DNA from: Citrus sinensis
Lineage: Eukaryota > Streptophyta > Magnoliopsida > Sapindales > Rutaceae
Reading direction: 5' to 3'
Length of the DNA stretch: 64,000 nt
Assembly (NCBI RefSeq): GCF_022201045.2
Contig: NC_068561.1
Coordinates: 20,648,501 to 20,712,500 of the forward strand
Under the pieces are notes generated by a model that worked only from the letters and a program-made list of their open reading frames with translations, was not told the DNA's origin and made no database searches. The stretch's first letter is position 1. Every line of letters begins with the position of its first letter. Below, in pieces: positions 1,476 to 28,825 of this stretch. Position numbers and translations under genes: made by a program.

Positions 1476-2461
1476 ATGAACGGCCCTTCCTCTGCAGCTC
1501 CCTTCAAAAGGTAATTGGCTACCACTTCCAGGATTTTGTACCCTGCAAAAAAAATACTAAAACAGCATTTGCGTTCTTTTTTCTTTTTTTTTTTTTCTTT
1601 TTTGGTTCTTGCTATCAAAAAAATGGTTGTCACTCAATCTTTTACAACATTTTGCAATTGTAATATTCCAATTTTAGGTTAGAAGGCAAAGTGGCAATCA
1701 TCACCGGAGGAGCAAGCGGCATCGGAGCAACGGCGGTTGAACTCTTCCATGAAAATGGCGCCAAACTTGTTATTGCCGATGTCCAGGATAAGCTTGGCGA
1801 AGAACTTGCTGATAAGCTGGGCCAAGATGTTTGCTACATCCATTGTGATATCTCAAATGAAGATGAAGTCATCAATCTCGTTGATACCGCCGTTTCTAAA
1901 TTTGGAAAGCTCGATATCATGTACAACAATGCAGGAATTCTTGACCGCAGCTTTGGGAGCATTTTGGACACTCCAAAGTCTGATCTAGAACGCTTAATTA
2001 ATGTAAACACTATAGGTGGTTTCTTAGGAGCCAAGCATGCTGCAAGAGTCATGGTGCCACAGCAAAAAGGTTGCATACTGTTTACAGCTAGTGCTTGTAC
2101 AGAAATTGCAGGGCTTGGCTCCCCTGCTTATACAATATCCAAATATGGGATTTTAGGACTAGTAAAGTGCTTGGCAGCAGAGCTTGGACAGTATGGAATA
2201 AGAGTAAATTGCGTCTCGCCTTATGGTTTGGCGACAGGAATGTCGATGAAAGGTGGGGTCGATCCGGCTCTAATAGAATCATCAATGAGCCAGATGGGTA
2301 ATCTAAAAGGGGAATTTCTAAAAACTGATGGCATTGCAAATGCTGCCCTCTATTTGGCTAGTGATGAATCAAGTTATGTGAGCGGGCAAAATCTTGTTGT
2401 GGATGGAGGATTCAGCGTGGTGAATCCTACAGTTATGAGGGCTTACGGTCTTATCAAGTAA
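1476..2461 (+). CDS. Short-chain dehydrogenase, secoisolariciresinol dehydrogenase-like (SDR copy 1)
   Basis: Model: exons 1476-1510 and 1678-2461, 272 aa. The 35-nt first exon encodes MNGPSSAAPFK. The split codon AG|G gives R before LEGKVAIIT. This is a classical NAD(P)-dependent SDR with a Rossmann fold. TGGASGIG (residues 21-28) is the dinucleotide loop. Asp46 (VIADVQD) at the end of beta-2 predicts NAD preference. NNAG is at 95-98, the catalytic Ser at about 150, and YxxxK is Tyr163/Lys167. The C-terminal VDGGFSVVNPT is typical of plant secoisolariciresinol, xanthoxin (ABA2) and related terpenoid dehydrogenases (SDR110C group). The substrate cannot be read from the sequence. No transit peptide is obvious, so it is probably cytosolic. 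It is the first of three direct tandem copies. Confidence 0.9.
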
Positions 2462-3493
2462 TCAATTGGAGCTTTAATTTGTAGATAATGGGGGATGCCG
2501 TACTCTGCTGCGTACGTGTAAGAATGCATTCATTTTGAAAAATAATTCACAAATTTGCTTCCAATTATCATATTTGAAACCACATTTACAATAGTTCAGT
2601 TTCTGGCAAATCCATTACTACTTCAGCTAGTTTGGTCTACTATTATGAAAAGAGCTCTATTTTGTTATGTGTATGTCTATTGGAAATCTTATTTGAAGAT
2701 ATCACGGACTCTCTGTGCACTAATACTTCTTGCCATTTGTCAGTAGGCCTATGGTTTGGCCACATGTTTTGACATTAGTTTGCAACGGAGTGCATGCACG
2801 TATTTTTTAAAAAAATTTGGTATTCTACCATTGTATTATTTTCTATTGGAGATGAAATAAAATTTATGTTTTAACGACTAAGAAAATAAAAACCACGCAA
2901 AACAGCAAGAATCTTTGTTCATAAAAGAAAGACCTTGTTGTATCCTGACCCTGCTATAAGCAGGACTAAAAGTGTATTTGTATGAAATTCCAACTTCTTT
3001 TTTTTTTTTCAATAGTTTGGCAACCCAAATTTCTCCCCCAGGAATCTCAAAATTCTAGTTAGATTTTAGTATTTGTACCGACTAAATTAACTAGACTTGG
3101 TACTTTAAAAATTAAAAATACACTTTTTAAGGCAAATTTCTAAATTATAATATGAGTAAACGAAAACAGTAATCGTGCATTTCTACGAAAATATATATAA
3201 GTAAAAGAGATATAATTAATAACAAAATTAAATTAGAATATCATTGTGTTGGAAGCAAGTAAACAACTTCCCAGACCACGTGTATATCCCTTAAAGCATT
3301 CAATCTCTGAATTAGTCAAGCCAACTTATCGTTTGGTTCCATGATTCAACCTTCAATCAATTCAATTTCTGTATTTTAGTCTTCTACGAAATTTCTAGGA
3401 AATTTCCCTACCGACAAGCTGCGGTCTTCGTCATCCACCAATCTCAAAGTCCTCAGATTGACAAAAAGTCAGTATATTCATTTTTTTTTCCCC
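2462..3493. other. Intergenic region between SDR copies 1 and 2
   Basis: AT-rich with short poly-T runs. No gene, transposon ends or structured repeat are visible. The last few hundred bases form the promoter side of SDR copy 2. Confidence 0.4.
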
Positions 3494-3500
3494 TATAAAT
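3494..3500 (+). promoter_or_regulatory. TATA box of SDR copy 2
   Basis: TATAAAT sits at the same place relative to the first-exon relic as the boxes of copies 1 and 3. The promoter core therefore survived although the start codon of this copy did not. Confidence 0.45.
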
Positions 3501-3761
3501 TCAGGACAAGAGTGAAGGAAATAATCACACTGCCAAGAGAAGGAAATAATCACAAGCCAAACCTTGTATTTTAACAATCTTGATTGAGTTTCAGGTTTTT
3601 GAGGAAATTTTTTCACACAGGCTTGTAGTACTACTGCAGCAGCACCCTGCGAAAGGTGTCAACTCAGCATTCGGTAAGAATTTACTTCAGCTTTGTTTAA
3701 TTCCCCCCCCTGTTTGTTTGTCTGTCTATTGCGCTACTGCTGTATATCTGGAGAATCAAAA

Positions 3762-4529
3762 ATGGTTTTCAAATGTTTGTCCCTCAAAATAGACAATAAT
3801 ATATTGCCAACATTGTCATCCTACTATAGGTTACAAGGCAGAGTGGCAATCATTACTGGCGGAGCAAGCGGGATCGGAGCATCTGCGGCTCAGCTTTTCC
3901 ACAAAAATGGAGCCAAAGTTGTCATAGCCGATGTGCAAGATAATCTTGGCCAAGCCCTAGCCGATAAGCTAGGCAACCAGGATGTCTGCTACATCCATTG
4001 TGATGTATCAAATGAAAGGGAAGTCATCAATCTTGTTGATACCACCGTTGCTAAATTCGGAAAGCTCGACATCCTGGTCAATACCGGATGCAATCTTGAG
4101 TATCGTGGTTTCGTGAGCATTTTGGACACCCCAAAGTCTGATCTAGAACATTTACTGGCTGTGAACACAATTGGTGGTTTCTTAGTAGCCAAGCATGCTG
4201 CAAGAGTCATGGTGCCACGCCGCAGAGGTTGCATATTGTATACAACGGGTACGGGCACTACTGCTTGTGCGGAAATTGAAGGTTTCTGCAATATTCCAGC
4301 TAATTATTATGGAGTGTCAAAATTTGGTATCTTGGGACTTGTCAAGGGCTTAGCGGCAGAGCTTGGACGGTATGGAATAAGAGTAGATTGCGTATCGCAT
4401 ACTTATGGCTTGGCAATGACTGAAGCGATAGCATCAATAGCAAACGCTGCGCTTTACAATATGGCTAAAGATGATGATACAAGTTATGTGGGTAAGCAAA
4501 ATCTTCTTGTCAATGGAGGATTCAGATGA
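3762..4529 (+). pseudogene. Decaying SDR copy 2 (start codon lost, internal deletion)
   Basis: The homologue of the large exon begins at 3830 (acceptor TATAG) and stays open to a stop at 4527-4529. The relic of the short first exon ends at 3655 (GAAAG|GT) and joins in frame, but it has no ATG: copies 1 and 3 have it where this copy has a T-run. The nearest in-frame ATG is 3762, inside the former intron, and it would give a 255-aa unspliced product. TGGASGIG, the NAD-type Asp and Y-GVSK are kept. NNAG has become a VNTG-type sequence, about 25-30 residues of the substrate-loop region after VDCVS are missing, and the frame ends right after NGGF. DNA matching the VVNPT codons still follows in another frame. 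It is most likely a pseudogene. A novel truncated protein from 3762 cannot be excluded. Confidence 0.75.
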
Positions 4530-4748
4530 GAGTTGTGAATCCTACCCTCTAAGAGAGCTTTCAATCGATGAAAAAAATTTCTGAGTTTTTTAGCTTCATT
4601 TTTCTCATATGTCAATTCAAAATTATGTGAGAATTGAATGATATAATTTTGTAACTCAATCTCTGTTTTTTTTTTTTTTTTGGGTTTAAGTAGCATTATT
4701 AGTTTGGTAAGTTGGGTAATTGCATTTATTAGAAAAGTTAGTGAGTGA

Positions 4749-4972
4749 CCAATAAAGTGTTGGCTCCACTGGCAATGGAGTCCCCTTAAGTGGCTTGACT
4801 GGGTTTGCTCCCCAGTTCGAGTCGCAGGGAAGTCGCCTTTGTTGGGAGAACCTGTGCCTCCCGGTTCGAGCGGGGACTTCTAGTCTGGGTTGTGGTACGG
4901 GCTTAAAGGTGCCTCCCACAGTTGGGGCCCTTCCCAGGATACCTCGTGGATAAGACAAAAAAAAAAAAAAAA
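4749..4972 (+). mobile_element. tRNA-derived SINE with perfect 18-bp target duplication
   Basis: The body runs from just after the first AGAAAAGTTAGTGAGTGA (4731-4748) to an A-tail of about 17 bases, and is followed by the same 18 bases at 4973-4990. Pol III-like boxes are visible near the 5' end: an A-box-like TGGCTCCACTGG at about 4763 and a B-box-like GTTCGAGTC at about 4813. A second B-like GGTTCGAGC lies near 4863. The intact target duplication and long A-tail suggest a fairly recent insertion. A full copy in the opposite orientation and a partial one lie at 17.3-17.8 kb. Confidence 0.9.
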
Positions 4973-4990
4973 AGAAAAGTTAGTGAGTGA

Positions 4991-6445
4991 AGCTCTTAAT
5001 TTCTAACACACGTTTTAATTTAAAAAATGAAAAAAAAAATACAATGAAATCCCACTTTTTATATTTGTTGCTCTCCCTGAATGAAAATTACAAAAAAATA
5101 ATGATAGTAAAGAAGAACCAAAGAATCTTCATTTAATATCATAAAAAAACTAAAAAAAATTGTAAACATAATTTTTTCACAATAAAGTTTTAATTATTAA
5201 ATAATTTATTGTTTCATTATTTGATTATTAGGAGTTTAATTGAAGATATTAAAGTTTATGATTTTCCAGTGTAAAGAAATGTTATTTTGGTTAAATGTTT
5301 GTCCTTTTATATAATTTCTTATATTAGAACCATCGCTATAAAACTGTGGTTTTATGAGAATATTGAAGGCGTGGGAAAAGCACTACTGACAGATTTTAAA
5401 TGCATTAAAAAAACTGTAGTATTAGAAGGTTTCATGTACCTTACATAACAATGCAAGGTACAGCCCTTTAAAATTGGATGCCTGAGAGTACAGTACAGCC
5501 CTTCTTAAACACCATTAGTAGTTTAGTACCCCACTTGTTCCTTGACTAAATGCGTTCCTAAAATTATTTAAAAAATACTGAGACACAATGTAGCATGCTA
5601 AGCTGTATTTTGATAAATTCTGTATGCCATTTTGATTCCCTCCCTCCTCCAAACCTATATTATGCCCTTGTTATGTCGAAATATCATTTCTTTTTTAAAA
5701 GAAAAGAAACAAAATTGAAATTCTAGATGAATTTTAAGTTTTAATTCTATCAACAACATGGATAATCAATCAAGCTGCTGGTTTTGAAGAGAATGGAAAA
5801 AAGAGACAGTGAACAGTTTGTGTGATCTGGGCTTACTGTTGTTATTGTTAAGAAAAAAGAAAATAGTAAGCAAATCAATTTTAGGCATACAATAGCTAAT
5901 GGGCTTGTAGCCCACTGATAACCCATATTTTAAGCGTATGAATTTGATTTTAACGTGTTGAAATTCTATTTATTTCTCAATTTTAAAAATTAACTAAAGG
6001 TAGATCTCTTTCTCACTAACGTGAATAGTGGATTAGATTCCTTTGGGATTTTATACGAGGGTGAAAATTTAGGTTGTGAATTAGAAAGATATGTTCCAAA
6101 TATCTGTGCGAAATATAATTATATTTTATTCACCTCGGCTGGTTTGATTCAATTGAAATGAATGTAAGCAGACTCCATCAGGGAATATGATTATTTCTTG
6201 ATTTAAGCTCTACTGAGTTTTTAAAGATTTTCTTCTATGTGTCTTTTAGTGGTAGTGTATGAGTAAGATTTAATTTCTTTTATTTTTTTATTTATTAACA
6301 ATCAATCAGCAATTGAATTATTTACTCAGGACATAATTAGATCAGGACAGAATCTTGATCCCTCCATCAGATGATATGACTTATGAGGCATTTGACTTTT
6401 ATTTTTAAATTCCTATTTGAATTTCTAATTCATTTCTCTTAACGC
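4991..6445. other. Intergenic region between SDR copies 2 and 3
   Basis: AT-rich, with no gene seen on either strand and no transposon termini recognised. The 3' end is the SDR3 promoter. Confidence 0.4.
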
Positions 6446-6452
6446 TATAAAT
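6446..6452 (+). promoter_or_regulatory. TATA box of SDR gene 3
   Basis: TATAAAT lies about 93 bases upstream of the ATG at 6539, in the same arrangement as the other tandem copies. Confidence 0.55.
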
Positions 6453-6538
6453 CCATACAAGAATGAAGGGAGAAGGCAGCCCTTACCCCAGCTTTTACTT
6501 CACTCTCAAACTTTCACCTTTGGGTTTTTGAGGAAAAT

Positions 6539-7485
6539 ATGGACAATGTACTCTCCGCGGCACCCCCTGGAATGTAACTAATTAGTATTCCTTTACAGTT
6601 TATGGTCTAAGACCTCAAATAATCCTGAGAGAAATCAATCCGGGTCTCTGGTTCTTAAGAATGATTTGGTCTTGTTAATTGTCATTCGATTTCAGGTTAG
6701 AAGGCAAGGTGGCAATAATCACCTGTGGGGCAAGTGGAATTGGAGCAACGACGGTTCAACTTTTCCACGAAAATGGAGCCAAAGTTGTTATAGCAGATGT
6801 CCAAGATAGCCTCGGCCAAGCCCTTGCTGATAAGCTAGGCGACAGTGTTTGTTACATCCATTGCGATGTACCAAAGGAAGATGAGATCACCAATCTTGTT
6901 GACGCAACAGTGGCTAAATACGGAAAGCTCGATATCATGTACAACAATGCAGGCATCGTTGACCGTGCTTTTGGGAGCATTTTGGACACTCCAAAGTCTG
7001 ATCTAGAGCGCGTACTGGCCGTTAACACAACTGGTGCTTTCTTAGGAGCCAAACATGCTGCGAGAGTCATGGTGCCGCAGCACAAAGGTTGCATACTGTT
7101 TACAGCTAGTTCTTGTACAGAAACTGCAGGGCTTGGCTCCCCTGCTTATGCAGTGTCCAAATATGGGATTGTAGGACTAGTAAAGTGCTTGGCGGCAGAG
7201 CTTGGACAGCATGGAATTAGAGTAAACTGTATCTCACCACATGCCGTGGTGACTCGAATCTCAGATCTCTTTGGCCGAGTGGATCCAACAGTGATGGAGG
7301 CACAATTGAGGGAGATGGGCAATTTAAAAGGGCAGGTTCTGAAAACTGAGGGCATTGCGAACGCTGCTATCTACCTGGCTAGTGATGAAGCAAATTATGT
7401 GAATGGGATTAACCTTGTGGTGGATGGAGGATATAGTGTTGTCAATCCTACCATTATGAATATGTTGAATGATGCCAATAAGTAA
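6539..7485 (+). CDS. Short-chain dehydrogenase, secoisolariciresinol dehydrogenase-like (SDR copy 3)
   Basis: Model: exons 6539-6573 and 6696-7485, 274 aa. Exon 1 is 35 nt, exactly as in copy 1, and encodes MDNVLSAAPPG. The split codon AT|G supplies Met before LEGKVAIIT. NNAG, the catalytic Ser region (FTASSCTE) and YAVSK are present, and VDGGYSVVNPT closes the protein. The NAD-type Asp follows VVIAD. It is the closest relative of copy 1. One oddity stands out: the dinucleotide-binding motif reads TCGASGIG, so the first Gly of TGxxxGxG is Cys (residue 22). This could weaken cofactor binding or be tolerated. Otherwise the gene looks intact and starts behind its own TATA box. Confidence 0.88.
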
Positions 7486-7578
7486 TTGTGGTCTAAACCT
7501 TGCAGCCGGTTAAGTTGGCTTTGCTCTGTAATTTTATCAATTTGACCCAGGAAGGATTAATTTTAAACTTAAAGGACA

Positions 7579-7725
7579 CTTTTTTTTTTTAGATAACAAA
7601 GCAGATGTATAAAAAGTATAAATATGCACACGTGGCAAGAGGAGAGCAGCGACTGATGTGGCGAGTCAGAACCTGAGCCCATGCACTCGTGAATTGTGCC
7701 GATGAGCTCTTAGCCCATTGACATG
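7579..7725 (-). mobile_element. Probable SINE remnant
   Basis: Read on the - strand there is an A-box-like segment (GGGCTAAGAGCTCA), a B-box-like GGTTCTGACTC about 45 bases later, and an A-run tail (the T-run at 7580-7590 on the + strand). No target duplication was found, so the limits are approximate. Confidence 0.35.
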
Positions 7726-7977
7726 TTTGTTCAATACTTCAATAAAGGTGAAGATGAGTAAATATCTCCACTGGCTTGAAAATCTTCTCCAATTTTTATT
7801 TTTTAGAATTTTACCAACCTGAGGAGCTGTTCATTTTCATAAAGGTTATGTACGTTATAAGGATATATGTTTGCTATTAAATGCATGCGGTTCATTAATC
7901 AAATTATCATGAGGGTAAAGGGCTCATGCCGGAAGTTCAAAATGGGCAGTATCAGGTTAGTGGGTGTGTTCTTCCAT

Positions 7978-8672
7978 TAAGGATGGCAATGGGACGGGGT
8001 GGGGGTGGGGGTGGGGATACCTATCCCATTTCTCACCCTATTAAAAATTTTTGCCTCTATTCTCTATCATATTCCCCAATAAATATAGTGGGTTGTGGAT
8101 GAGGATTTCCCACGTGGGGAATAATTTTTCCATCTCTACTCCATTCCCCATTTATTTATTTTATAGTAGATATAAAATTATGATTTCAATAAATTAAAAA
8201 TTATAGACTTAAAATAAAATCATCACCATATTATAAAGTATTTAAATTTTTTTAAATATCTAAAAGTTTGAAACAATATCTTGAACTGATATTAAAAATA
8301 AAAAATATTTAAAGAGAGCAGCACCTTAAAAGAGAAAAGAAAATATAATAATATTTTAAAGTTAAAAAATATTGTAGGGTTTTCTTTTACTCATATCATG
8401 TTTATATTACATAAAAATTAAAAAAATTATTAATTGACATTATAGTTCATAAAATAAAATTATTGAATAAAAAATAAAAATATATTTATATATAATGGAG
8501 ATTGGGGTGGGGGTGGGGTGCGGAGTGCAATACCAAACCCCACCCCATTAACAATTTGAGGATTACTTTCCTCCCACTTCCCACTCCATTCCCTAAAAAT
8601 TATTAAAAATTTTCCACATTTGGGGTGGATCTCAATGGGGCTCTAAATCCGTAGAGGATTTTGCCATTCCTA
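7978..8672. mobile_element. Non-autonomous hAT-like element
   Basis: The 695-bp segment is flanked by an 8-bp direct repeat TCTTCCAT (7970-7977 and 8673-8680). Its ends are imperfect inverted repeats: TAAGGATGGCAATGGG at the left, and TAGGAATGGCAAAATCC at the right when read on the other strand. G-rich (GGGGTGGG) subterminal repeats occur at the left, around 8500 and at the right. There is no open frame. An 8-bp duplication and TAGGNNTGGCA-type ends are the hallmarks of hAT elements. Confidence 0.7.
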
Positions 8673-8680
8673 TCTTCCAT

Positions 8681-9184
8681 ATTCAAGCATCATAATTGAT
8701 TATTAGTATGTTATATCTTAAAATAAATTATAATTATCTTATTCAACATAATGATAGTGCATTATTAAAATTTTGCGAATAATGTAGACTAAATAATAAT
8801 AATTTAAACATTATAGGTATGTACCGCATTTTTGGATAATTTTGTGAACAAATAAATAAGTTTTTTTAGTCAATATACATTATCTATTAAATGATGATGA
8901 TGATGATTTATGTCTTAAGAAGTAGATAAATTTGTCCAGTTTATGAATTATGCTTCAATCATTCAATTTATCAAATTTTTAAAAATAATAATAATAAATG
9001 GGGTTCACTCTTTCTTTTTTATTTTACTGCAAATATGACTGCACATTAAATAGGTTGGTGTTCATTAAATCCACCCTCAATGCTTCACAAAGTCATTAGT
9101 CCACCCAACGGTTAGATTTTGTGTTCAACTTAACTATTAACCACTTCAACAATATAAAAATATAATAATATTTTTATTAATAAA
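8681..9184. other. AT-rich intergenic DNA
   Basis: No gene or repeat structure beyond short simple-sequence runs (GAT, AAT) was noticed. Confidence 0.4.
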
Positions 9185-9376
9185 GAGTAATGTTACACAT
9201 CCCAAATTTTTTATCCCAAAAAATTGTCTCAAATGTTGTTTTATTTATCAATTGGTTGGTGAGATAATACAATTAATTTACTTAGATCTTATAAAGAATT
9301 ATCAACCACTAAATTAATGACACATCATTTGGGATAACTTTTTAAGATAAAAAATTTGGGATGTGTAGCACTACTC
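9185..9376. mobile_element. MITE with 31-bp terminal inverted repeats
   Basis: The left end GAGTAATGTTACACATCCC and the inverse of the right end GAGTAGTGCTACACATCCC continue identically to base 31, with two mismatches in all. The 192-bp element has no coding capacity and is flanked by ATAAA on both sides (9180-9184 and 9377-9381), a possible 5-bp target duplication in AT-rich DNA. The superfamily is uncertain. Confidence 0.8.
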
Positions 9377-9600
9377 ATAAAAAATGACAAAAATTTTAAC
9401 CCACATAATATGGATTATTTTGATACAATGTTGATTAAAATCTTATTACACATATATAACATAAAAATATATAATTAAAATATTTTTAATTATATATATA
9501 CATAGTTAGTAACTGAAATACATATATATATATATATATATATACTATTTTACCATCTCAATTCTTTAATTACAAAGTAACTTAAAACAAGAGAAATTAA

Positions 9601-9823
9601 TTTATTATTATTATTATTATTATTTATCAATTGGGGCTCAATTAAAGCTAAAGAACAACTGAGCGAGAAGTCGCAATCCCGTAAGAGTCATACAAAAGAA
9701 AGGGATCTAACCCCCAGCGGAGGACTAGGGTATACTATAAGGCCAAGAGGCAAAGAACAAGTAAGGTTTGCCATAAAATCAGCAGCACAGTTCACCTCTC
9801 TGTACACATGAGAGTATTACGGT
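9601..9823 (-). mobile_element. 3' end of a LINE (RNase H C-terminus plus TAA tail)
   Basis: On the - strand a frame reads SHVYREVNCAADFMANL, then SLPLG and a stop at 9688-9690. This is the C-terminal signature of the RNase H domain (HVYRExNxxADxLA) of plant LINEs. Downstream come about 85 bases of 3' sequence and a (TAA)n-type tail, seen as (TTA)n at 9601-9622 on the + strand, which is how many plant LINEs end. The element is strongly 5'-truncated. A host RNase H-like gene fragment is the alternative, but the simple-sequence tail favours a LINE. Confidence 0.7.
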
Positions 9824-10061
9824 GAGATTTTTTTTTATCATTTTCCCCCCAAGTATTACGGCGTTAAGATCACAACTAGCAATCAAACTCAACGTTTCGT
9901 TTTGGAATAAATTACTTTCTAATGAGTCTAGGAATGAAAAAAACTTGTTCAATTTTGTTTCATTCGAGATCAAGGATCAAATATGAACTTGATATTTGAA
10001 CAGAGTTTTTTTTTTTCCCCACTCAAATGGGAAAAAACCTTGATGAAATTAACTAACTCGA

Positions 10062-11509
10062 TCAAGAATCTGGGTACTGAAACATTCCGAGGGAGGGATT
10101 GACAATAGTGAAACCTCCGTCAATGAAAAGATTGTGTCCACTCACGTACTTCGCCTCATCACTCGCTAGATAAAGAGCTGCATATGCAATATCTTCGGTC
10201 CTTAAAGTCACACCCTTAAGGTTAGCCGCTGAATTCATAAAACCTTCTAGATCCTCATCGGTAATCCCAACAAAACTGGTAGCCAAAGGTGTTGCAAGAG
10301 CATAAGGTGACAAGCAATTCACCCTAATCCCAAATTGGCCTAGCTCAACAGCAGCATTTTTGGTGAGTCCTAAAACAGCATGTTTTGCACAACAGTATGC
10401 ATGTGAGGCAGCAGCACCAACCCTTGAGCTAACGCTAGCAGTTGAAAGAATGCTGCCACTGCGAGCCGGAATCATGACACGAGCAGCATGCTTGATGCCC
10501 AAGAAAACTCCGGTGACATTTACACTCAGGACACGCTCGAAATCGGCCTTTTCATTGTCGATTATGCGGGTCTTGTTAGGGCCGCCTATGCCGGCGTTGT
10601 TGAACATTATGTCCAGCTTGCCATGAGTTGCAACGGTTTGGTCGATTGCATTTTTAATGTGGGATTCGTTTGTGACATCGCAATGGACATAGGATGAGTT
10701 TGATGTGCCTATGGATTCAACAACTGAATGGCCTAATTCTTCCTGAATATCCGCAATGACAACTTTGGCACCCTGTTGGGCAAAGACTTTTGCAGTGCAT
10801 GCACCAATTCCACTAGCCCCTCCGGTAATAAAGGCCACCTTGCCCTCTAGCCTACACAATCCAGATGCAAACCTTGAAATGTTATATTTTTTTCGAGGGT
10901 TTTACATACTAACTTACTTATTGATCTTTGTGCAGGTAGATTCCAATCCAATGAATTATCACTAAAAAAAAAGAAAAAAAGCGAATCAATTCTGGGAGGA
11001 AAAAAAGGCGTTGAAAGTAGGAGAATCTTTTTAATAGTAAAGGGATTGTAATTGAATCTGAAATATGAGGGAGAAAAAACCATAACAATTTTGAAATCTT
11101 GAAAGATATTTCTGTCTATTTTCTAATTGACTGGAAAAGAGCCTTTCTCTGTAATTTCGAGTCAACGCAGTAGATCTGAAAATCTAAGCCATTAATTATG
11201 TACAATCCTGTAACATTAATGTTTTAAAGTGAAGTATACACAAAAATTGTTACTGTAAACTTAGGATAGAAAAAGAGTGCAGATAGCTCGAGTACTTGCT
11301 TTGAATAGAAAGATATTGGTGATGAATAAATCATTTGTGTATGTTTTCTGAATTAGTACTAAATAAGTGTCATAAGCATGAGATGAGTAGCTGTTGGATC
11401 AGTTGATTAAAAAAAAAAAAAAAAACACTGAAGATGAAAGCAAAAACTTGATTTGGTTTGTCGTGACTTACCTTCTGGTGATTGCAGAAAGAACCCCTGA
11501 GCTAGCCAT
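10062..11509 (-). CDS. Short-chain dehydrogenase, xanthoxin/secoisolariciresinol dehydrogenase-like (SDR copy 4)
   Basis: Model on the - strand: exon 1 11472-11509 (MASSGVLSAITR), intron 11471-10852, exon 2 10851-10062, 275 aa. The split codon AG|G restores R before LEGKVAFIT. TGGASGIG, the Asp of VVIADIQ, NNAG, the Ser region (STASVSS) and YCCAK (Tyr/Lys) are all present, so it should be an active NAD-dependent SDR. It lies opposite to the tandem trio and is clearly more diverged (IDGGFTIVNPS, NLKGVTLRTED), so it is an older paralogue. The first exon is again tiny, so the exon layout predates the cluster. The 5' leader carries a GA microsatellite. The substrate is unknown; ABA, lignan and terpenoid dehydrogenases are all possible relatives. 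Confidence 0.9.
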
Positions 11510-20734: not shown

Positions 20735-22459
20735 CTAAAGCGAACTGCAACCAGGTATTTTTCTAAGCCCCCTCTCCTTCATTTTGCTTCTAACAAGACA
20801 GACATCCAACCACCGATCTGCAGTTGCATAGATGTTGGATAACAGCACATAACTACCAGCATTTTGTGGCTCGAGCTCAAAAAGCCGGTTTGCGACCAAT
20901 TCTCCTAACTCAATGTCTGAATATAACTTACAGGCCCCAAGGAGTGCACCCCAGGCACTTGCATGAGGCTCCACGGGCATTGAATTTAAAAGCTCATAAG
21001 CTGATTTCAAGTGTCCGGTCCGGCCAAGAAGATCAACCATACATGCATAATGCTCAGGAGAAGGAACAATAGCATACACGTTTTGCATGGCTTCAAAAAA
21101 GCGCCAACCATCCTCAACAAGTCCAACATGACTACAAGCAGTCAACACAATTGTGAAGGCCACCTCATCAGGAGTCAGCCCTTCACTTAACATTCTATCA
21201 AAGAGGGAAACAGCCTGTCTGCCATGCCCGTGTATCGACAATCCTTTTATCATGGAACAATATGATACTACGTCTCTATTAGGCATTGTTTCAAATAACT
21301 CGGCCGCTCTATCCATATTCCCACACTTAGCATTCATGTCTATAAGTGCTGCAATAACATGAGCTCGGCTAAGATCCATGTGACTTCTACTCAAATAAGA
21401 ATCCACCCAGTTGGACAAATCCAAATTGCCCACCTGAGAACACGCTGACATCAAGCTCACCAATATAAACTCATCTGGCCGGACGTTCTTTGAACACATT
21501 TCCGAAAATATCTTCACAGCCTCATTAGGCTGGCCATTCTGTGCATACCCTGATATCAAGGCTGACCATGCAACAACATCTCTATCAGGAGCTGCCTCAA
21601 ACAAAGACCTTGCTGACGTCATATCACCCACTTTCGCATATCCATCAATCATTGTGGTATACGATACCACATTCCTCTCGGGCATTTCATCAAACAACTG
21701 CCTAGCACTTCTCAAATCTCCTATCTTCACTAACCCCCCAATCAAAGCATTCCATGAAACATTACTCCTCTCCGGCATTAAATCAAAAACCGTCTTCGCT
21801 TCCACCAAATCCCCAACACTCGCATATCCAACAATCATCGCTGTCCATGAAACAACATTTCTCTCAGGCATTTCATCGAACACTTTACGGGCGCAAGAAA
21901 TCTCTTTACGTTTCCCATATAAGTCAATCAAACTAGTTCCCACAAACACATCCTCATCAACCCCCCACCTAATTACAGCAGCTTGAATCGCCGTTCCTTC
22001 CCTCACACTAAGCACATGCGAACACGCCTTAATTACCAATGGGAACGTATACTTATCAGGCACCGCTTCCTCTCTAATCAATCGAACAAAAATCGTAAAA
22101 ACCTCAATAAAACGAGAATTCTGAGAGTACCCTTTTAAGAGGGTGTTCCAAAGAAAAGTATTGGGATTGACAATGCGGTTGAAGACGGCGGTAGAGTAAG
22201 ATAAGGGAGTGGCGAGGGAGTGACACAGCGAGATGAAGTGGGCAACGAGAGAGTGATCTTGCTCGAGGCCCTTTTTGATGATGTGAGAGTGAACCTGGTG
22301 GAGGTGAGTTTGGAGTTTGCACTTCTTTATCAGGGTTAAAGCGGAAAGGAGACACGATGGTTTTGGGAAGTTGATGGGCGCTGATCGTGAGCAGTTAGGT
22401 AGCATCGAAGAGCAGGACTTGTGCTTGCATGGCGTGTTTGGTTCGTCAATTTTGGGCAT
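20735..22459 (-). CDS. Pentatricopeptide repeat protein, PLS class with truncated E domain
   Basis: Intronless, 574 aa from the first ATG at 22459; the frame upstream of it has no ATG. Degenerate 31-36-residue PPR motifs run through nearly the whole protein, for example NVVSWTAMIVGYASVGD, NVSWNALIGG, NVVSYTTMIDGYAKVGD, DVVAWSALISGYAQNGQ and DVVSYCSMIKGLSIHG. The variable spacing indicates PLS-type repeats. The C-terminus has the E-region hallmark (EHYACMVDLLGRTG, then SAWGALLGACK) and stops at GLRKIPGCSSL, so no E+ or DYW deaminase domain follows. Such proteins bind organellar RNA in mitochondria or plastids and often specify C-to-U editing sites. Without a DYW domain it would need a partner deaminase. 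A basic N-terminus could be a targeting peptide. The overall sequence resembles the At5g37570-type group, but that is from memory. Confidence 0.9.
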   Translation of the reverse strand: MPKIDEPNTPCKHKSCSSMLPNCSRSAPINFPKPSCLLSALTLIKKCKLQTHLHQVHSHIIKKGLEQDHSLVAHFISLCHSLATPLSYSTAVFNRIVNPNTFLWNTLLKGYSQNSRFIEVFTIFVRLIREEAVPDKYTFPLVIKACSHVLSVREGTAIQAAVIRWGVDEDVFVGTSLIDLYGKRKEISCARKVFDEMPERNVVSWTAMIVGYASVGDLVEAKTVFDLMPERSNVSWNALIGGLVKIGDLRSARQLFDEMPERNVVSYTTMIDGYAKVGDMTSARSLFEAAPDRDVVAWSALISGYAQNGQPNEAVKIFSEMCSKNVRPDEFILVSLMSACSQVGNLDLSNWVDSYLSRSHMDLSRAHVIAALIDMNAKCGNMDRAAELFETMPNRDVVSYCSMIKGLSIHGHGRQAVSLFDRMLSEGLTPDEVAFTIVLTACSHVGLVEDGWRFFEAMQNVYAIVPSPEHYACMVDLLGRTGHLKSAYELLNSMPVEPHASAWGALLGACKLYSDIELGELVANRLFELEPQNAGSYVLLSNIYATADRWLDVCLVRSKMKERGLRKIPGCSSL

Positions 22460-22934
22460 TGGAGTTAGCTCTCCCTCGCGGGATAGTTGCCCACTGTCCC
22501 CGCCATTGTAGCACGTGTACCGCCAGCCCAGAACAGAAGGGTGGTCTACATAATTGTAATGATTCAATGGGTGATAGTACTCGCACTTTATGGTGGGTAA
22601 CAGAATTCTATGGCTTCTATATGCTTACAATATAATAGGCAGTAATGCTCAACAAATCATCTTCATTCAAGTACAAATTTGACTTTTAGTTACCCAGCTG
22701 TAAGAATATTTCTGAAAAATTCTATAAATTTTACCCTTTAAATATTTATTTACTTACCTACATGATAAATAGAAGAGTGAAAAAATATATTATTCTTTAA
22801 AAAACTCTTTAAATAGAAATGAGTTAATATTATTTTAATTAAAATAATTATTTAAAAAAAAGTTAATAGTAATCAAAGTATCTTTCTCTTTCTTTAATAA
22901 AAAATAATAAAATATAAATTGAAGAAAAAAAAAG
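22460..22934. other. PPR upstream region and left flank of the MULE
   Basis: AT-rich. No gene seen. Confidence 0.4.
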
Positions 22935-23058
22935 AAAAATATCCACCGTCCACCTGATTTTGTCCACTTTATCAAAAATACACAAATCTTAATTTTTTTA
23001 GCTGCGCTCCACCTGAACTTAAACTTTTTTTCACATTTCCTCCTCCGTCTACAAACCG
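22935..23058 (+). repeat. MULE left terminal inverted repeat
   Basis: It starts AAAAATATCCACCGTCC and contains AGCTGCGCTCCACCTGAACT. It matches the reverse complement of 28331-28454 almost base for base over the outer 100 or so bases. Confidence 0.93.
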
Positions 23059-24008
23059 TGAAGACGTTGCTGACATCATAAGGTTAAAATGATAATTTCA
23101 CTTGGGCTTAAAAAACGACATCGTTTAAGATCTGTAATAAGCAAAAAAAAAAAAAGGAAAAGGAGGCATAGTGGTCCACCAGTACAGCAAGCAACGAAAA
23201 CAGCCATAGTTTATTCCCCACCACATGCACGAAGAAGCAACAAAATCCCGCCATTTTTCCTATAGTTTCCATGCATTTTCATCAACGAACCACGCTTAAG
23301 TTTCAAATATTTTGTTAAATCGAAGATTCAGAGGCATTGACGAAAGCGGTGAGCTGTTACGAAGTCGCGAAGTTTTGCTTTTTTAAGGGTTTGAAGCTAC
23401 AATCAAGTTTTGTTTTGTTTACTTATTTTCAGTTAATTTTTGACATGCAACAATGTTTTTGAAATAATGTCTGGTGATTGTTGTTAACACATTCATTCGC
23501 TATTACTGGAAACCCTAGAATATAGATTAGTTTGATTTGTGACATATTTGTTGGGGGTAATGATAAATTGGGGAGTAATATGGTGTTTTCGGTTGTTGAG
23601 ATGCAAATTTATGAAAGATTATGCTACTATAGTTGAATGCATGTTTATCCCCTGCCTAGTTATGTATCTTTGTCTGTGGTTTACATATAAAATTTGGGGC
23701 TTTTGAAATTTTGGTTGGTGATGTATGGGTCATGGTTTTTTGAAATATTTTAACCCCTGGCTATATTTGTATGCATATCCCTCAGCCCCCCGAGGAAGAT
23801 TTGGTTGTTGCATGTAAAATTAGAATATTTAAAAAGCTAGTTACATGCATCCATATCCAGCTAGATGTTTGTTTACATGCTTTTTCTTTAAGTGTCTGAC
23901 CTGCAATATTAATAATACATTAATAGGAAGATAGTAGAGTTACCAACAAAACTCAAGAACTGTAAACCAGTGCTGAATTTTTTATTTATTTATTTTTGGG
24001 CATTCAGG

Positions 24009-27000
24009 ATGCGACAAGTAGAGTTAGTGATATCCTTTCGAGGCATGAAAAAGAATTTAGGGTTGCTTCAACCTGATTGTACAGTTGCGAAGATTAAGGA
24101 TACTGTTGTAAGCATTACGAGTCCATATGGGTTAGATTGTGCTTCAAAAGTCATGTTATACGTTATAAATCCAGAGAATCAGGCTAAGGTTGCACTGGAT
24201 TCAGATTTTGGGCTAGATGTTTTGCTTAAAATTCATCACATTTTGGGTGTGAAGACTCTCACAGTTGAAGTTGCACCAGCACTGTACCCTCAGTTTCAAG
24301 ATTCTGCCTTACTACATGCATTATTGACTAACCTAGGAGTTGTGTTGCCTGATGAACTGATTAATCAGTTGAATGATTCTGTCGGCGAAAATGCTTCTGT
24401 TGGGGGACAAGCTAGTGTTAGAAAGGATGATGTTGTTGATGGACAAGCTGCTATTGGGGGTGGTGAATCTGACGAAGATGCATTACTATCTGACTACTCG
24501 GACAGAAATGATTGCAATGATGATGATGTTAATGCACAAGTCATGCAAGCTGAAGTTGATGGTGCTGCTGTAGGTACTCTTGTTGATGAGGACAGTGAGG
24601 GCACAACTGAAACTGACGTTGATTCTGATTCAGATGGTAGTTTATCTGGTGATAATAAGCAGGTAAAAGGGGTCGTTGATTCTTTTGATGATGATATTGA
24701 GCTTGGGACTGTCAAATTGACCAATTACATAGAACAACATGAGTATAAAGTGGGTGCTGATGGAAAAAATAGACTAAAATTAGGACATGTGTTTAGAGAT
24801 GTTGCTCATTTTAGAGAGATTTTGCATGAAGTGATGATTAGAAAAGGGTTTGCCATTAAAACAGTTTACAGTGAGCCAATAAGATTTGTAGGTACTTGTA
24901 AAGAGGCTGGTTGTCCATGGTATGTGGCTGGTGTAAAACTAAACGATGGAACTGGTTTTATATTGCGACAGTACAATAAGAAGCATAAGTGCAGACTTAC
25001 CACCAAGACAGTGAAAGTGTCTTCTTCTTGGGTAGCCAGCAAAATAAAAAGTCAGGTTGCCATTGACCCGAATGTGAAAATTGATCTTTTGAAGAATTTT
25101 ATGCAAGAGATGTATGGTTTGAAGATTCAAAATTTGACATTGTATCGGGCTAGAGCAAAGGCAAGAACAGAGGTTTTTGGGGATCATTCGCTTGGATATC
25201 AGAAACTGTTTGAGTATGCTGCAGCTATTCACAAAGCTGATCCGGGTGCAATATGTAAGGTGTTGTGTGATAGTATTTCTATACCCGATAAGGTATTATT
25301 CCAAAGATTTTTTGTTTCATTTCCAGCACAAAGAAATGCATTTTTTAATGGCTGTAGGCCTTTCATCGGGGTAGATGGATGTCACTTAAAGGGTAAATAT
25401 GGGGGAGTACTGTTAGCTGCTGTTGGCATGGATGGTAATAATGGGATTGTCCTATTGGCTATATGTGTTTGTGAGATTGAGAATACAGAGACATGGGGAT
25501 GGTTTATGGAGCACTTGCATAGTTATCTAGAGGATGGGAGGCAAGTGACTTTTGTTAGTGATAGACAAAAAGGCCTGATTAATGCAATTTCAAACACATG
25601 GCCTACTGCTTATCATAGGGCATGTTCTAGGCATGTGTATGCTAATTTTTCTAAGTCATTTGCTGGTGCACAGTTGAAACAATTATTTTGGAAAGCTACT
25701 AAGAGTTGTAACAAGCATGACTTTGATGAGGCAATGGCAGAGATAAAAGCTGTAAAACAGGCTGCATTTGAATGGCTGAAAGAGAGCTAAATGATTATAG
25801 TTGGTCGATGCACACATTTGATAGAAATTGCATGGTAGACCGGACTGACAACAATACGTCAGAGTGCTTCAACAGCTGGATATTAGCTTACCGAGACAGG
25901 CCTTGCTTGACAATGCTTGAAGAAATCAGATGTCGGCTTATGAAACGGTTTACAAAGAGGAGACACGAGGCAGCCACTTGGAAGGGACAGTTGACACCTA
26001 AAGTTGTAAGAGAGTTGGACAAAAAAAGAAAGCTTGCACAGAAAATGATTGTACAAGCTTCTGGTGAGCTGAATTTTCAAGTCATGGATGCAGCGTATAG
26101 TCCACCTAGAAGGTTTGTGGTGAAGTTGGAGTCCAGAACATGTGATTGTGGTTATTGGGAAATTGCCGGCCTCCCTTGTCAACATGCCATGGCTGCCATT
26201 GGATATGCAAGACATGCAATTGAGGAGTATGTTCCAGCATGGTTTGCTACACAGACTTTCCTCAACACATATTCAGTGATGTTTAGCCCTCTTCCGGATC
26301 AATGTATGTGGGAGCGTATAGGAAGACCATTGATTGATCCACCAATTGTGCAGAAAAAAGGTTGGAAGGCCTAAAAAATCCAGGAAAAGAGCACAAAATG
26401 AGCCTAATAAAGAGAAAAGAAAATTCTTTGTTATTTGCTCATTCTGCGGTGGCTCCAACCATAATCTGAGGTCTTGTCCATTAAGACCATCTGTTGCAAG
26501 GGCAAATAGAGTTAAAAGTCATAACTCTCAGGTACAGACAATATACTACCATTAATTTTTAATAGTTTATTATTATACATCATATGTAGCTGTTATTATT
26601 TACTGTCATTAAATAACCAACATCATGTTTTGTAGGCATCAACTACCTCAATTCAGCCGTTAAATGTTTCACAACAAGCAACAAGAAGAAGAAAACAGGT
26701 GCTGACTTGTTTTATTTTATTTTTTTGTGGCTGTCCAATTTGTTTTATGCGTAACGCGTAACATAAGATTCATTTATGTTTGAACATAGGCATCACAGAC
26801 AACAACAGTAGCAAAATCAATTGATTCAAAAGTTACTACATCACAGACAGCAAGAAAGGTGTTTTTTTTTCTGTTTAAGTTCTTTTTGTTTTTTTTCTTG
26901 TTTAAGTTCTCAAACTAACGTACAATATATTTAGATACCAAGTGGTCCAGGACAAAGTTCCAATACTAGAGGGAGGAAAAGAAGGGCTCAAGTTGGCTCT

Positions 27001-27093
27001 GGAGATGTTGGAACAAGAGGTGAACAATCAAGTCAGGGACTGTCACAATCTGAAAATCCATATCAAGCTTCAAATGTGACAGGTTCTTTGTAA
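24009..27093 (+). pseudogene. MuDR-type transposase (mudrA-like), frame disrupted
   Basis: The ATG at 24009 follows a leader-intron acceptor (CATTCAG). The N-terminal about 90 residues look PB1-like, followed by an acidic stretch. Next come the MuDR DNA-binding region (LGHVFRDVAHFRE...GTCKEAGCPW...HKC zinc finger) and the MULE transposase core with the catalytic Asp residues of GVDGCHLKG and FVSDRQKG. The frame closes at 25790 (WLKES-stop), but homology continues in another frame (MAEREL...; TDNNTSECFNSWI) with the SWIM finger CDC...LPCQH. It closes again at 26374, while VGRPKKSRK and the zinc knuckle CSFCGGSNHNLRSC continue in the first frame. Three spliced C-terminal exons follow: 26636-26698, 26790-26858 and 26935-27093. 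The two shifts (a GA run at about 25780 and an A run at about 26352) compensate each other. It is therefore a recently broken transposase, or one with sequence errors. Confidence 0.85.
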
Positions 27094-27137
27094 TGATGAA
27101 TGCGAGAACAAACTAAAAATATTTAAACTTGCTATGT

Positions 27138-27212
27138 TGTTATTTTGGAATATCGCTGGTTATTTTAGAATATTGTTGGTTATTTTGGAATATTGCTGGT
27201 TATTTCGGAATT
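27138..27212. repeat. Four short tandem repeats of about 21 bp inside the MULE
   Basis: GTTATTTTGGAATATCGCTG-like units recur four times between the two convergent genes. Confidence 0.6.
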
Positions 27213-27427
27213 TTACTTGGCTGTATTTTCATGACATGTTTAATTGTTATTTTTGCTGTTTGTTGGATAATTAGATATGGTTGTATTTAAGCTCATTTTA
27301 CTTGGGCTGTATTTTTCATTTATTATGGTTGAAGTTATATTATTTACAATGTATTTAAGTTGACTGGCTCTAGGACAAATAGAACATAATTAATCTCATT
27401 TTATTCATGCATATTTCGTAGGATATA

Positions 27428-27805
27428 TTACATTTTAGTAAACACAATAGCACAGACAAATACTAGCATAATTATTATACATTTAAGCCTCCCTTCAATG
27501 ACCTTTAGCCTTTTCTTTATCTTTGCTACATCATCAGCTCGAAGGTGGACTGCATCCAACTCTAAATTTTGATTATCTGCTGTCTGGTCACTATTGCTAG
27601 GGTATATAAGAGTTTCAGCTGTAAACCATTGCCAAAACTTGCATTTATTGAACCTGCATGACCAAAACATTGCATTGCGATTCTGTGGTGTAGTGGAAAC
27701 CATAGCACATGCATGCACACCACACCAGCAGTGAATTGGAGTGCATTTAACTTTTCTATGTTGCTGTCCACTGGGTGCAGAACTTGAATTATAACTTGAT
27801 GCCAT
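27428..27805 (-). CDS. GRF-type zinc-finger protein with C-terminal membrane anchor, carried by the MULE
   Basis: An intronless 125-aa frame from ATG 27805 to a stop at 27428. A GRF-type zinc finger spans about residues 26-62: CWCGVHACAMVS, then NAMFWSC and CKFWQWF. A short coiled coil (DDVAKIKKRLKVIEGRLK) and one hydrophobic C-terminal helix (about 108-122) follow. It converges on the transposase gene and lies wholly between the terminal repeats, so it belongs to the element. Proteins of this shape are abundant in plant genomes, often without known roles. GRF fingers in other proteins bind single-stranded DNA. A role in transposition (a mudrB-like accessory) is inferred only from position. 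The frame is intact. Confidence 0.82.
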   Translation of the reverse strand: MASSYNSSSAPSGQQHRKVKCTPIHCWCGVHACAMVSTTPQNRNAMFWSCRFNKCKFWQWFTAETLIYPSNSDQTADNQNLELDAVHLRADDVAKIKKRLKVIEGRLKCIIIMLVFVCAIVFTKM

Positions 27806-27867
27806 TTTTTAATTGATTGGGTGGATGATGTGTTTGAAATAATGGTTAAACAAGTGATATTTGGCGA

Positions 27868-28143
27868 GTGTAGATGATGGGTTGTGTATGAGTTGGTTTA
27901 TTTGAACAAATAATTGTCAGCTGTGATTGGTTTGTGAGCAGCTGTATATTTGCTTGAATGTGTAGATGATGGGTTGTGTATGAGTAGGTTTATTTGAGCA
28001 AATGATTGTCAGCTATGGTTGGTTTGTGAGCAGCTGTATATTTGCTTCAATGTGTAGATGATGAGTTGTGTATGAGTAGGTTTATTTGAACAAATGATTC
28101 TCAGTTGTGGCTGGTTTGTGAGCAGCTGTATATTTGCTTGAAT
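27868..28143. repeat. Three 92-bp tandem repeats, subterminal in the MULE
   Basis: Units start at 27868, 27960 and 28052 (GTGTAGATGATG...GCAGCTGTATATTTGCTT). They sit directly upstream of the GRF gene start at 27805, in its promoter region. They resemble the subterminal repeats that transposases of other families bind. Confidence 0.9.
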
Positions 28144-28330
28144 GGTAGAGCTTTCATGCATTGCATATGTAACGGTTCATGGGTTTAAATACCCAAAATT
28201 GTAACCGTTGGGAGGCAACGGCTACAAAGAGCACAAAGTTAATATTTTGGCATTTATTTAGGGTAAATATGTAAATTTTTATTTTCGGGGTTAAAAAGTA
28301 ATTTCGACAAAATTCCGTTACTTTTATTGA

Positions 28331-28454
28331 CGGTTTGCAGACGGATGTGGAAATGTGAAAAAAAGTTTAAGTTCAGGTGGAGCGCAGCTAAAAAAATTAG
28401 GATTTGTGTATTTTTGATAAAGTGGACAAAATCAGGTGGACGGTGGATATTTTT
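28331..28454 (-). repeat. MULE right terminal inverted repeat
   Basis: Reverse complement of 22935-23058, sharing GTCCACTTTATCAAAAATAC and AGCTGCGCTCCACCTGAACT. It diverges near the inner edge. Confidence 0.93.
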
Positions 28455-28825
28455 TTTAAAAAAAATAACTCTCTAAATTTAAAAGGAAGAGATCAATTCT
28501 TTTTAAAAAAATTTAATTAAAATATTTTTTAAAATTTTAAATATTAATATATTTTTTTAAATAAATAATAAAATCATATTTGAAGAATTTTATGACGATG
28601 CTCTGTCCCGTACACTTGGCAAAAATCGTTAGAAATTCGACAATAAGGTAAACCATTCGTCTCGTTTTGGAGCCCAATGTGGCTGAGGCCCAAAAATTTA
28701 CTTTACTGTCGCAGTGCCGCTCGCCGAACGAACAAACAAAAAGCAGCCAAGTGACATTGCGAAGACGGCAGGCTGAAGCGAGGATTGATTAGTACAGTAA
28801 CTAGCGAGTTGCCACCAGCAGCAAA
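28455..28825. other. Right flank of the MULE and promoter of the small membrane-protein gene
   Basis: AT-rich in its first half, then more GC-rich towards the ATG at 28826. No other gene seen. Confidence 0.4.

Follow-up and report, generated by a model that had tools for sequence, protein, structure and literature searches.

The window analysed here, a stretch of 64,000 nucleotides of the Citrus sinensis genome (C6:20648501-20712500), contains a MuDR-type Mutator-like element (MULE) at positions 22932-28457, whose inverted ends enclose a transposase gene and, convergent with it, a small gene for a protein with a GRF zinc finger (Table 1). We interpret it as a MuDR-type MULE with two genes that has since decayed. 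Searches of the genome (299.7 Mb, 11 contigs) showed that many MULE lineages of this one genome have inherited the GRF gene as their second gene and that it is not captured cargo. The same convergent pair recurs across the genome with distant transposases, which argues against a local capture; the two genes co-diverge, the GRF gene is constrained between subfamilies, and both lie in units that were transposed whole.

The element and copies with the same ends

A preliminary description of this locus had reported a complete MULE with a transposase and a convergent GRF gene. The element is real: the transposase domains, the terminal inverted repeats (TIRs), the 125-aa minus-strand open reading frame (ORF), the finger, the helix and the hydrophobic tail were all recovered, and the layout is complete. 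The transposase frame is not, because its three pieces on the plus strand (24009-25790, 25772-26374 and 26334-26555, where 24009 is an ATG within a listed ORF that starts with GTG) lie in three frames, i.e., the window copy has two frame breaks. A copy on C7 (L009, C7:627539-633058), which is 98.7% identical to the window element over 5,528 aligned columns, codes for the transposase in a single open frame of 861 aa. The MuDR DNA-binding domain and the MULE catalytic domain lie in the first ORF of the window copy and the SWIM zinc finger in the second, all above the Pfam cut-offs, and the third gave a zinc-knuckle match only, which was sub-threshold. The MULE (DDE) domain that marks the MULE superfamily was also found in the C7 copy (PF10551, E 4.8e-19), and the presence of both PF03108 and PF04434 above their cut-offs, i.e., a DNA-binding domain together with a SWIM finger, places the element among MuDR-like MULEs. 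The GRF gene ends ~330 bp from the predicted end of the transposase gene.

Long TIRs are a further feature of the MULE superfamily; those of the window element, previously given as 124 bp, measured 131 nt and are 95% complementary. When the genome was searched with the TIR, at least 41 matches were obtained, some of them partial (the best 40 of 749 candidates were scored). The ends of related copies start GGGAAAATATCC, and the window copy is without the outer GGG. Six long copies with the same ends were identified (the window element, the C7 copy, C3:27.81M, C1:5.35M, C4:19.25M and C3:42.61M), and both genes were found in each, with the transposase partly deleted in some. Thus the GRF gene is not confined to the window as a captured host gene, the case that would have spoken against the preliminary description; it recurs in five other long copies with the same ends. 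The target site duplications (TSDs) of 8-11 bp that are typical of MULEs are present in related copies: exact TSDs of 8-10 bp flanked 5/5 of the other long copies (taking the best of offsets within 3 bases), and among 12 short copies with the same ends (975-1,745 bp) the TSD was exact in 8, had one mismatch in 2 and was absent in 2. In the window copy no TSD is clear: its outer GGG is absent and both flanks are A-runs, so that a duplication cannot be shown there.

The short copies have only the end regions in common with the long element and are non-autonomous passengers. All 12 of those fetched gave no GRF match and have no transposase either, so that a role as GRF-only vehicles was ruled out. 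These sequences (L014-L025), which match the long element near its ends only, fall by internal sequence into the groups L014/L015/L016/L018/L019, L017/L021/L025 and L020/L022, with L023 and L024 as single members.

Table 1. Features of the MuDR-type element in the window (positions of the window)
Feature	Position	Strand	Remarks
Left terminal inverted repeat	22932..23062	+	131 nt
Transposase main exon	24009..26531	+	Three reading frames in window copy
DBD_Tnp_Mut (MuDR DNA-binding domain)	24774..24947	+	Pfam PF03108, E 1.8e-9
MULE catalytic (DDE) domain	25365..25646	+	Pfam PF10551, E 1.3e-18
SWIM zinc finger of transposase	26114..26203	+	Pfam PF04434, E 2.2e-8
Further short 3' transposase exons	26636-26698, 26790-26858, 26935-27094	+	Predicted by eye; GT/AG, phase 0
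20-bp tandem repeat	27139..27211		3.7 copies, between the two gene ends
GRF gene	27428..27805	-	125 aa, single frame, convergent with transposase
C-terminal helix of GRF protein	27434..27577	-	Ends in hydrophobic tail, 27437-27487
GRF zinc finger	27626..27730	-	C26, C28, C50 and C55 invariant in 22/22
92-bp tandem repeat	27868..28149		3.1 copies, upstream of GRF start
Right terminal inverted repeat	28327..28457	-	131 nt; 95% complementary to left repeat

Linkage, movement and co-divergence of the two genes

Only the best-scoring candidates were scored in the genome searches and all totals are lower bounds: 106 of 106 candidates were scored for the window GRF query, the best 74 of 952 and the best 150 of 529 for the transposase queries, and the best 150 of 220 and of 221 for two distant GRF queries. 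The window GRF protein gave 90 matches at 83 loci. The window transposase, used as two queries, gave 83 and 158 matches (150 of the latter listed), which merged into at least 140 loci. The preliminary description had proposed recurrent linkage of the two genes as a check, and such linkage was evident: 64 of the 83 GRF loci are convergent with a transposase locus within 8 kb, usually at a distance of ~1.05 kb (860-1,480 bp in 58 of the 64). Altogether, 65 pairs within 8 kb were convergent, none divergent and one on the same strand. Random placement linked a mean of 0.19 GRF loci and at most 3 in 1,000 trials. This first test assumed 40 Mb for C5; a rerun with the true C5 size gave the same picture, with 0.24 transposase loci partnered by chance for the window-GRF set and 0.46 (maximum 5) for the union with the distant queries.

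Addition of the two distant GRF queries, whose rows were compiled by hand and whose overlaps with known loci were removed by eye, raised the number of GRF loci to at least 204. With this wider set, a convergent GRF gene was present at 99 of the 140 transposase loci, compared with the chance mean of 0.46. By identity to the window transposase, partners were found at 43 of 48 loci at 60% or above, 15 of 23 at 42-60% and 41 of 69 below 42%. Even among the loci only 33-37% identical that came from the transposase query with 83 matches, 14 of 15 had a GRF partner, with gaps of 1.15-2.60 kb. Most of the unpartnered loci among the 69 most distant (27 of 28) were matched by the SWIM-part query only.

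Two further families contain pairs of elements that moved as whole units. The first is represented by 5,069-bp elements on C2 (L039) and C9 (L042), which are 99.6% identical, have ends GGGTTATTTTTACTT with inverted repeats of ~90 nt, and are each flanked by a 10-bp TSD, the two sites being different. Both elements have an open GRF frame; the transposase of L042 is open over 742 aa, and across the corresponding 742 codons that of L039 contains no stop. The second family comprises L038 (C2, 6,287 bp) and L041 (C3, 5,804 bp), with ends GGGTTATTTTTCGCC, inverted repeats of ~115-135 nt and 9-bp TSDs; here, too, both elements have an open GRF frame, the transposase frame of L038 has 813 aa, and that of L041 has no stop over 769 aligned codons. 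Because the ends and TSDs enclose both open genes, the two genes moved together in each pair, and at least the L039/L042 unit, nearly identical at its two sites, moved recently. There are accordingly three families with different ends, each enclosing a transposase and a GRF gene. A segment of ~350 bp close to the start of the L038 transposase frame (L038 8753-9106) is absent from the otherwise 98% identical L041.

The two genes also diverged together. GRF identity to the query tracks the identity of the linked transposase (Spearman 0.86, 64 pairs), and GRF and transposase distances of 12 matched loci were correlated (Mantel 0.70, p 0.0003) and gave broadly the same groups; in this set L036 and L035 are represented by short GRF pieces only, and their mutual GRF distance is meaningless. 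Purifying selection on the GRF frame, the second check proposed in the preliminary description, was found between subfamilies: the ratio of nonsynonymous to synonymous substitution rates (dN/dS) was 0.12-0.35 for GRF and 0.19-0.24 for the transposase, values which are rough because several dS exceed 1 (the GRF value of L009-L035 was not computable). Fisher tests of GRF constraint gave p values of 1.3e-5 to 3.3e-12 in 5 chosen pairs, which were picked from 22 chosen pairs reported out of all GRF pairs computed.

The preliminary description had further attached significance to an intact GRF gene beside a broken transposase. This observation carries no weight. A GRF stop is present in 3/6 of the long same-ended copies, and relative to L009 there are 3 stops in 622 GRF codons and 8 in 3,843 transposase codons (frameshifts uncounted), counts by which GRF is not preferentially spared; the idea that it is retained while the transposase decays was therefore ruled out. 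When L011, L012 and L013 were compared with L009, dN/dS was 0.44-0.51 for GRF and 0.46-1.51 for the transposase.

The GRF protein

No Pfam match was detected for the GRF protein of the window, and an NCBIfam scan gave no match for 5 proteins. Among six homologues compared with Zn_ribbon_GRF (PF06839, cut-off 25.9 bits), L038 (31.1 bits) and L039 (29.1 bits) scored above the cut-off, L057 (18.5 bits) and L062 (24.0 bits) scored below it, and L045 and L054 had no match. The window protein and 21 homologues from the same genome keep the four cysteines and an N-F-C-C-F-W core. A profile of these 22 family members retrieved NEIL3 GRF chains from PDB (E 1.2e-5 and 1.7e-5), followed by six snake-venom metalloproteinase/disintegrin chains (E 0.0036-0.76), which we take to be chance cysteine matches. 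Zinc-ligand cysteines and fold are features of the GRF family, and the assignment of the protein to this family is supported by the cysteines, conserved in 22/22, and by the NEIL3 profile match.

The AlphaFold model of the protein has a mean pLDDT of 68.7, with 82-88 in the finger region; residues 77-124 are modelled as a helix, the first part of which is of low confidence. In a Foldseek search, NEIL3 GRF ranked first with a probability of 0.99 but an E value of 0.27, Apex2 GRF ranked tenth among RNA polymerase zinc ribbons and other folds, and no match had E <=0.001. A hydrophobic tail was found in 22/22 members examined (Kyte-Doolittle 2.6-3.1 over 17 residues), ending 2-9 residues before the C-terminus in all of them, a pattern which is probably that of a tail-anchored membrane protein. 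The GRF protein is probably tail-anchored and, by analogy with its solved relatives, a binder of single-strand DNA. It resembles the GRF fingers of NEIL3 and APE2/Apex2 in finger sequence and predicted fold, but these are domains of larger DNA-repair enzymes, whereas here the finger forms a small stand-alone transposon protein with a hydrophobic tail.

The GRF partners at L057 12-389, L038 4695-5168 and L039 4641-5165 gave weak, sub-threshold matches to DUF730, a Pfam family without a known function. It is possible that DUF730 and the GRF genes of MULEs are linked; the word DUF730 was not found in the open-access literature searched.

The second gene among known MULEs and its possible role

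The element described here shares with maize MuDR (mudrA/mudrB) its long TIRs and its two genes, one for a transposase and one for a second protein, and maize mudrB is described as coding for a novel protein required for integration (PMC8224964, PMC6446971). MURB was compared by its available description, which mentions neither a GRF finger nor a membrane tail. In Dupeyron et al. 2019, plant MULE groups 42 and 47-50 are similar in that they have an extra ORF that is antisense (sometimes, often or mostly), a SWIM/CCHC transposase and 9-bp TSDs (PMC6446971, Table 1), but this extra ORF codes for a plant mobile domain (PMD) and not for a GRF finger; that Table 1 lists PMD, FAR1, SET and other motifs and no GRF, and the term does not occur in the main text. 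CitMule of Citrus is likewise a MULE with 9-bp TSDs, but it is of the non-TIR type and has one 5-exon transcript with a FAR1 domain (PMC4334395). In the accessible text of a study of grapevine MULEs, ULP1-like regions are marked in a legend and GRF is not mentioned (PMC2528002). Among the papers listed in searches of open-access PMC text, none linked a GRF finger to a MULE, which is weak evidence of novelty; the few that contained both GRF and transposon terms were unrelated to the gene content of MULEs or, in one case, had MuDR as an author name. As far as we have seen, the MuDR-type two-gene layout is known and the GRF class of second gene is unreported.

That the transposase and GRF genes form a two-gene unit is near certain, and an accessory role of the GRF protein is likely; the exact step it serves is a guess. 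On balance we lean towards an inherited second gene that codes for an element-made, membrane-anchored accessory factor, which would serve the element's own transposition in a role comparable to that of maize MURB. The gene may be transcribed inward from the right TIR, as the TIRs of MuDR are promoters (PMC8224964). Its finger, judging by the GRF fingers of NEIL3 and APE2, would hold single-stranded or branched DNA, the C-terminal helix might pair GRF subunits, and the tail might insert into a membrane, for which the nuclear envelope or the endoplasmic reticulum (ER) would be the most useful site. The protein could then handle the excised end or the target gap during re-integration or gap repair. 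We place it at this step because maize mudrB is required for insertion, and reactivated elements without mudrB still excise somatically (PMC8224964). An elaboration, which we regard as rather improbable, is a membrane-tethered MULE system in which the tail-anchored GRF protein fixes excised or gapped element DNA to the nuclear envelope and guides re-integration or repair; if true, membrane tethering would be the missing biochemical logic of the MuDR-type second gene across a major set of plant MULEs. In any case, the same finger type and tail recur beside transposases that share about a third of their residues, which makes the GRF protein a concrete and testable accessory protein.

Several observations weigh against an accessory factor common to these MULEs. 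No GRF gene was found with the window and two distant GRF queries at 41 of the 140 transposase loci. Unpartnered loci include long frames at C8:3821811 (809 aa) and C1:2014534 (701 aa), with one stop each in the match, and stop-free ones at C3:40827034 (788 aa), C6:10274348 (708 aa) and C2:16900593 (611 aa). Because several unpartnered transposases thus have open frames of 600-800 aa, some MULE lineages in this genome appear to have no GRF gene or one too divergent to be detected. Conversely, 105 of the 204 GRF loci are without a listed transposase, the transposase loci being those found with window-transposase queries only; 86 of these 105 were found by the distant GRF queries only. Besides the roughness of the between-subfamily dN/dS values, close GRF pairs gave mixed ratios (0.16-0.27 in six, and 0.50, 0.80, 0.81, 1.00 and 1.53 in five), which fits copies drifting after insertion and is not itself evidence of selection. 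A membrane anchor is also a poor fit for a transpososome that is soluble. Moreover, the descriptions of Jittery and CitMule give each of them a single gene.

The main rival, which we consider unlikely, is anti-silencing: like VANC of Arabidopsis VANDALs, the GRF protein would bind non-coding DNA of the element and keep methylation off. VANDAL/Hiun elements (vanA, vanB and vanC) are MULEs that likewise have accessory genes, including one that acts for the element itself, but the proteins are different, and VANC is a sequence-specific anti-silencing factor (PMC10398659). VANC proteins bind tandem repeats in non-coding VANDAL DNA (PMC10398659), and the tandem arrays of the window family, which lie just upstream of the GRF gene (92 bp) and between the two genes (20 bp), would suit such a function. 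However, no comparable arrays were found in L042 or in L041 4200-9901, though both carry GRF, and tandem targets were rejected as a general feature on this basis (the end of the L041 element, L038 and L039 were unscanned). In addition, NEIL3 GRF fingers are described as binders of single strands and forks and not as sequence-specific duplex binders (PMC9266487), the word transmembrane does not occur in the accessible text of the VANC paper, and the families share a conserved GRF core, in contrast to VANC systems, for which fast diversification is described (PMC10398659).

Still more doubtful is an action away from the element, in which the GRF protein, located at the ER or nuclear envelope, would counteract a host process (quality control of RNA or protein, or nuclear import) and so raise element activity indirectly. 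With the tail present in 22/22 members, the finger would face the cytoplasm or the nucleus, which favours this reading, but fingers of this type bind nucleic acid in solved relatives, and we know of no host partner.

Capture of gene fragments is frequent in MULEs (PMC6446971), and GRF is unlinked at 19 of 83 loci (among the transposase loci listed) and at about half of the wider set, yet a captured host gene or hitch-hiker without a role in the element, as in Pack-MULE cargo, is already largely refuted in this genome and very improbable: the gene, its order and its orientation are constant across transposases that differ at ~65-73% of residues, cargo of Pack-MULEs being variable between related elements and unconserved; a transposase remnant lay in the convergent place at 3 of six unlinked loci inspected (the other 3 were solo GRF); and we reject host capture because of linkage, co-divergence and selection. 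Beyond this genome, many of the small GRF genes of plants that are annotated as ordinary genes may in fact belong to transposons. In peanut, twelve GRF zinc finger genes were reported among differentially methylated protein-coding genes (PMC6293580).

The tandem arrays of the element vary in copy number; L011 has 4.2 copies of each unit (92 bp and 20 bp). A minus-strand ORF of 610 aa, PPR-like by eye, is located at window positions 20735-22567. It starts ~365 bp away from the left end of the element, and its promoter region may thus contain the insertion. Four other ORFs, at window positions 1691-10859, are short-chain-dehydrogenase-like by eye and form an apparent gene cluster.

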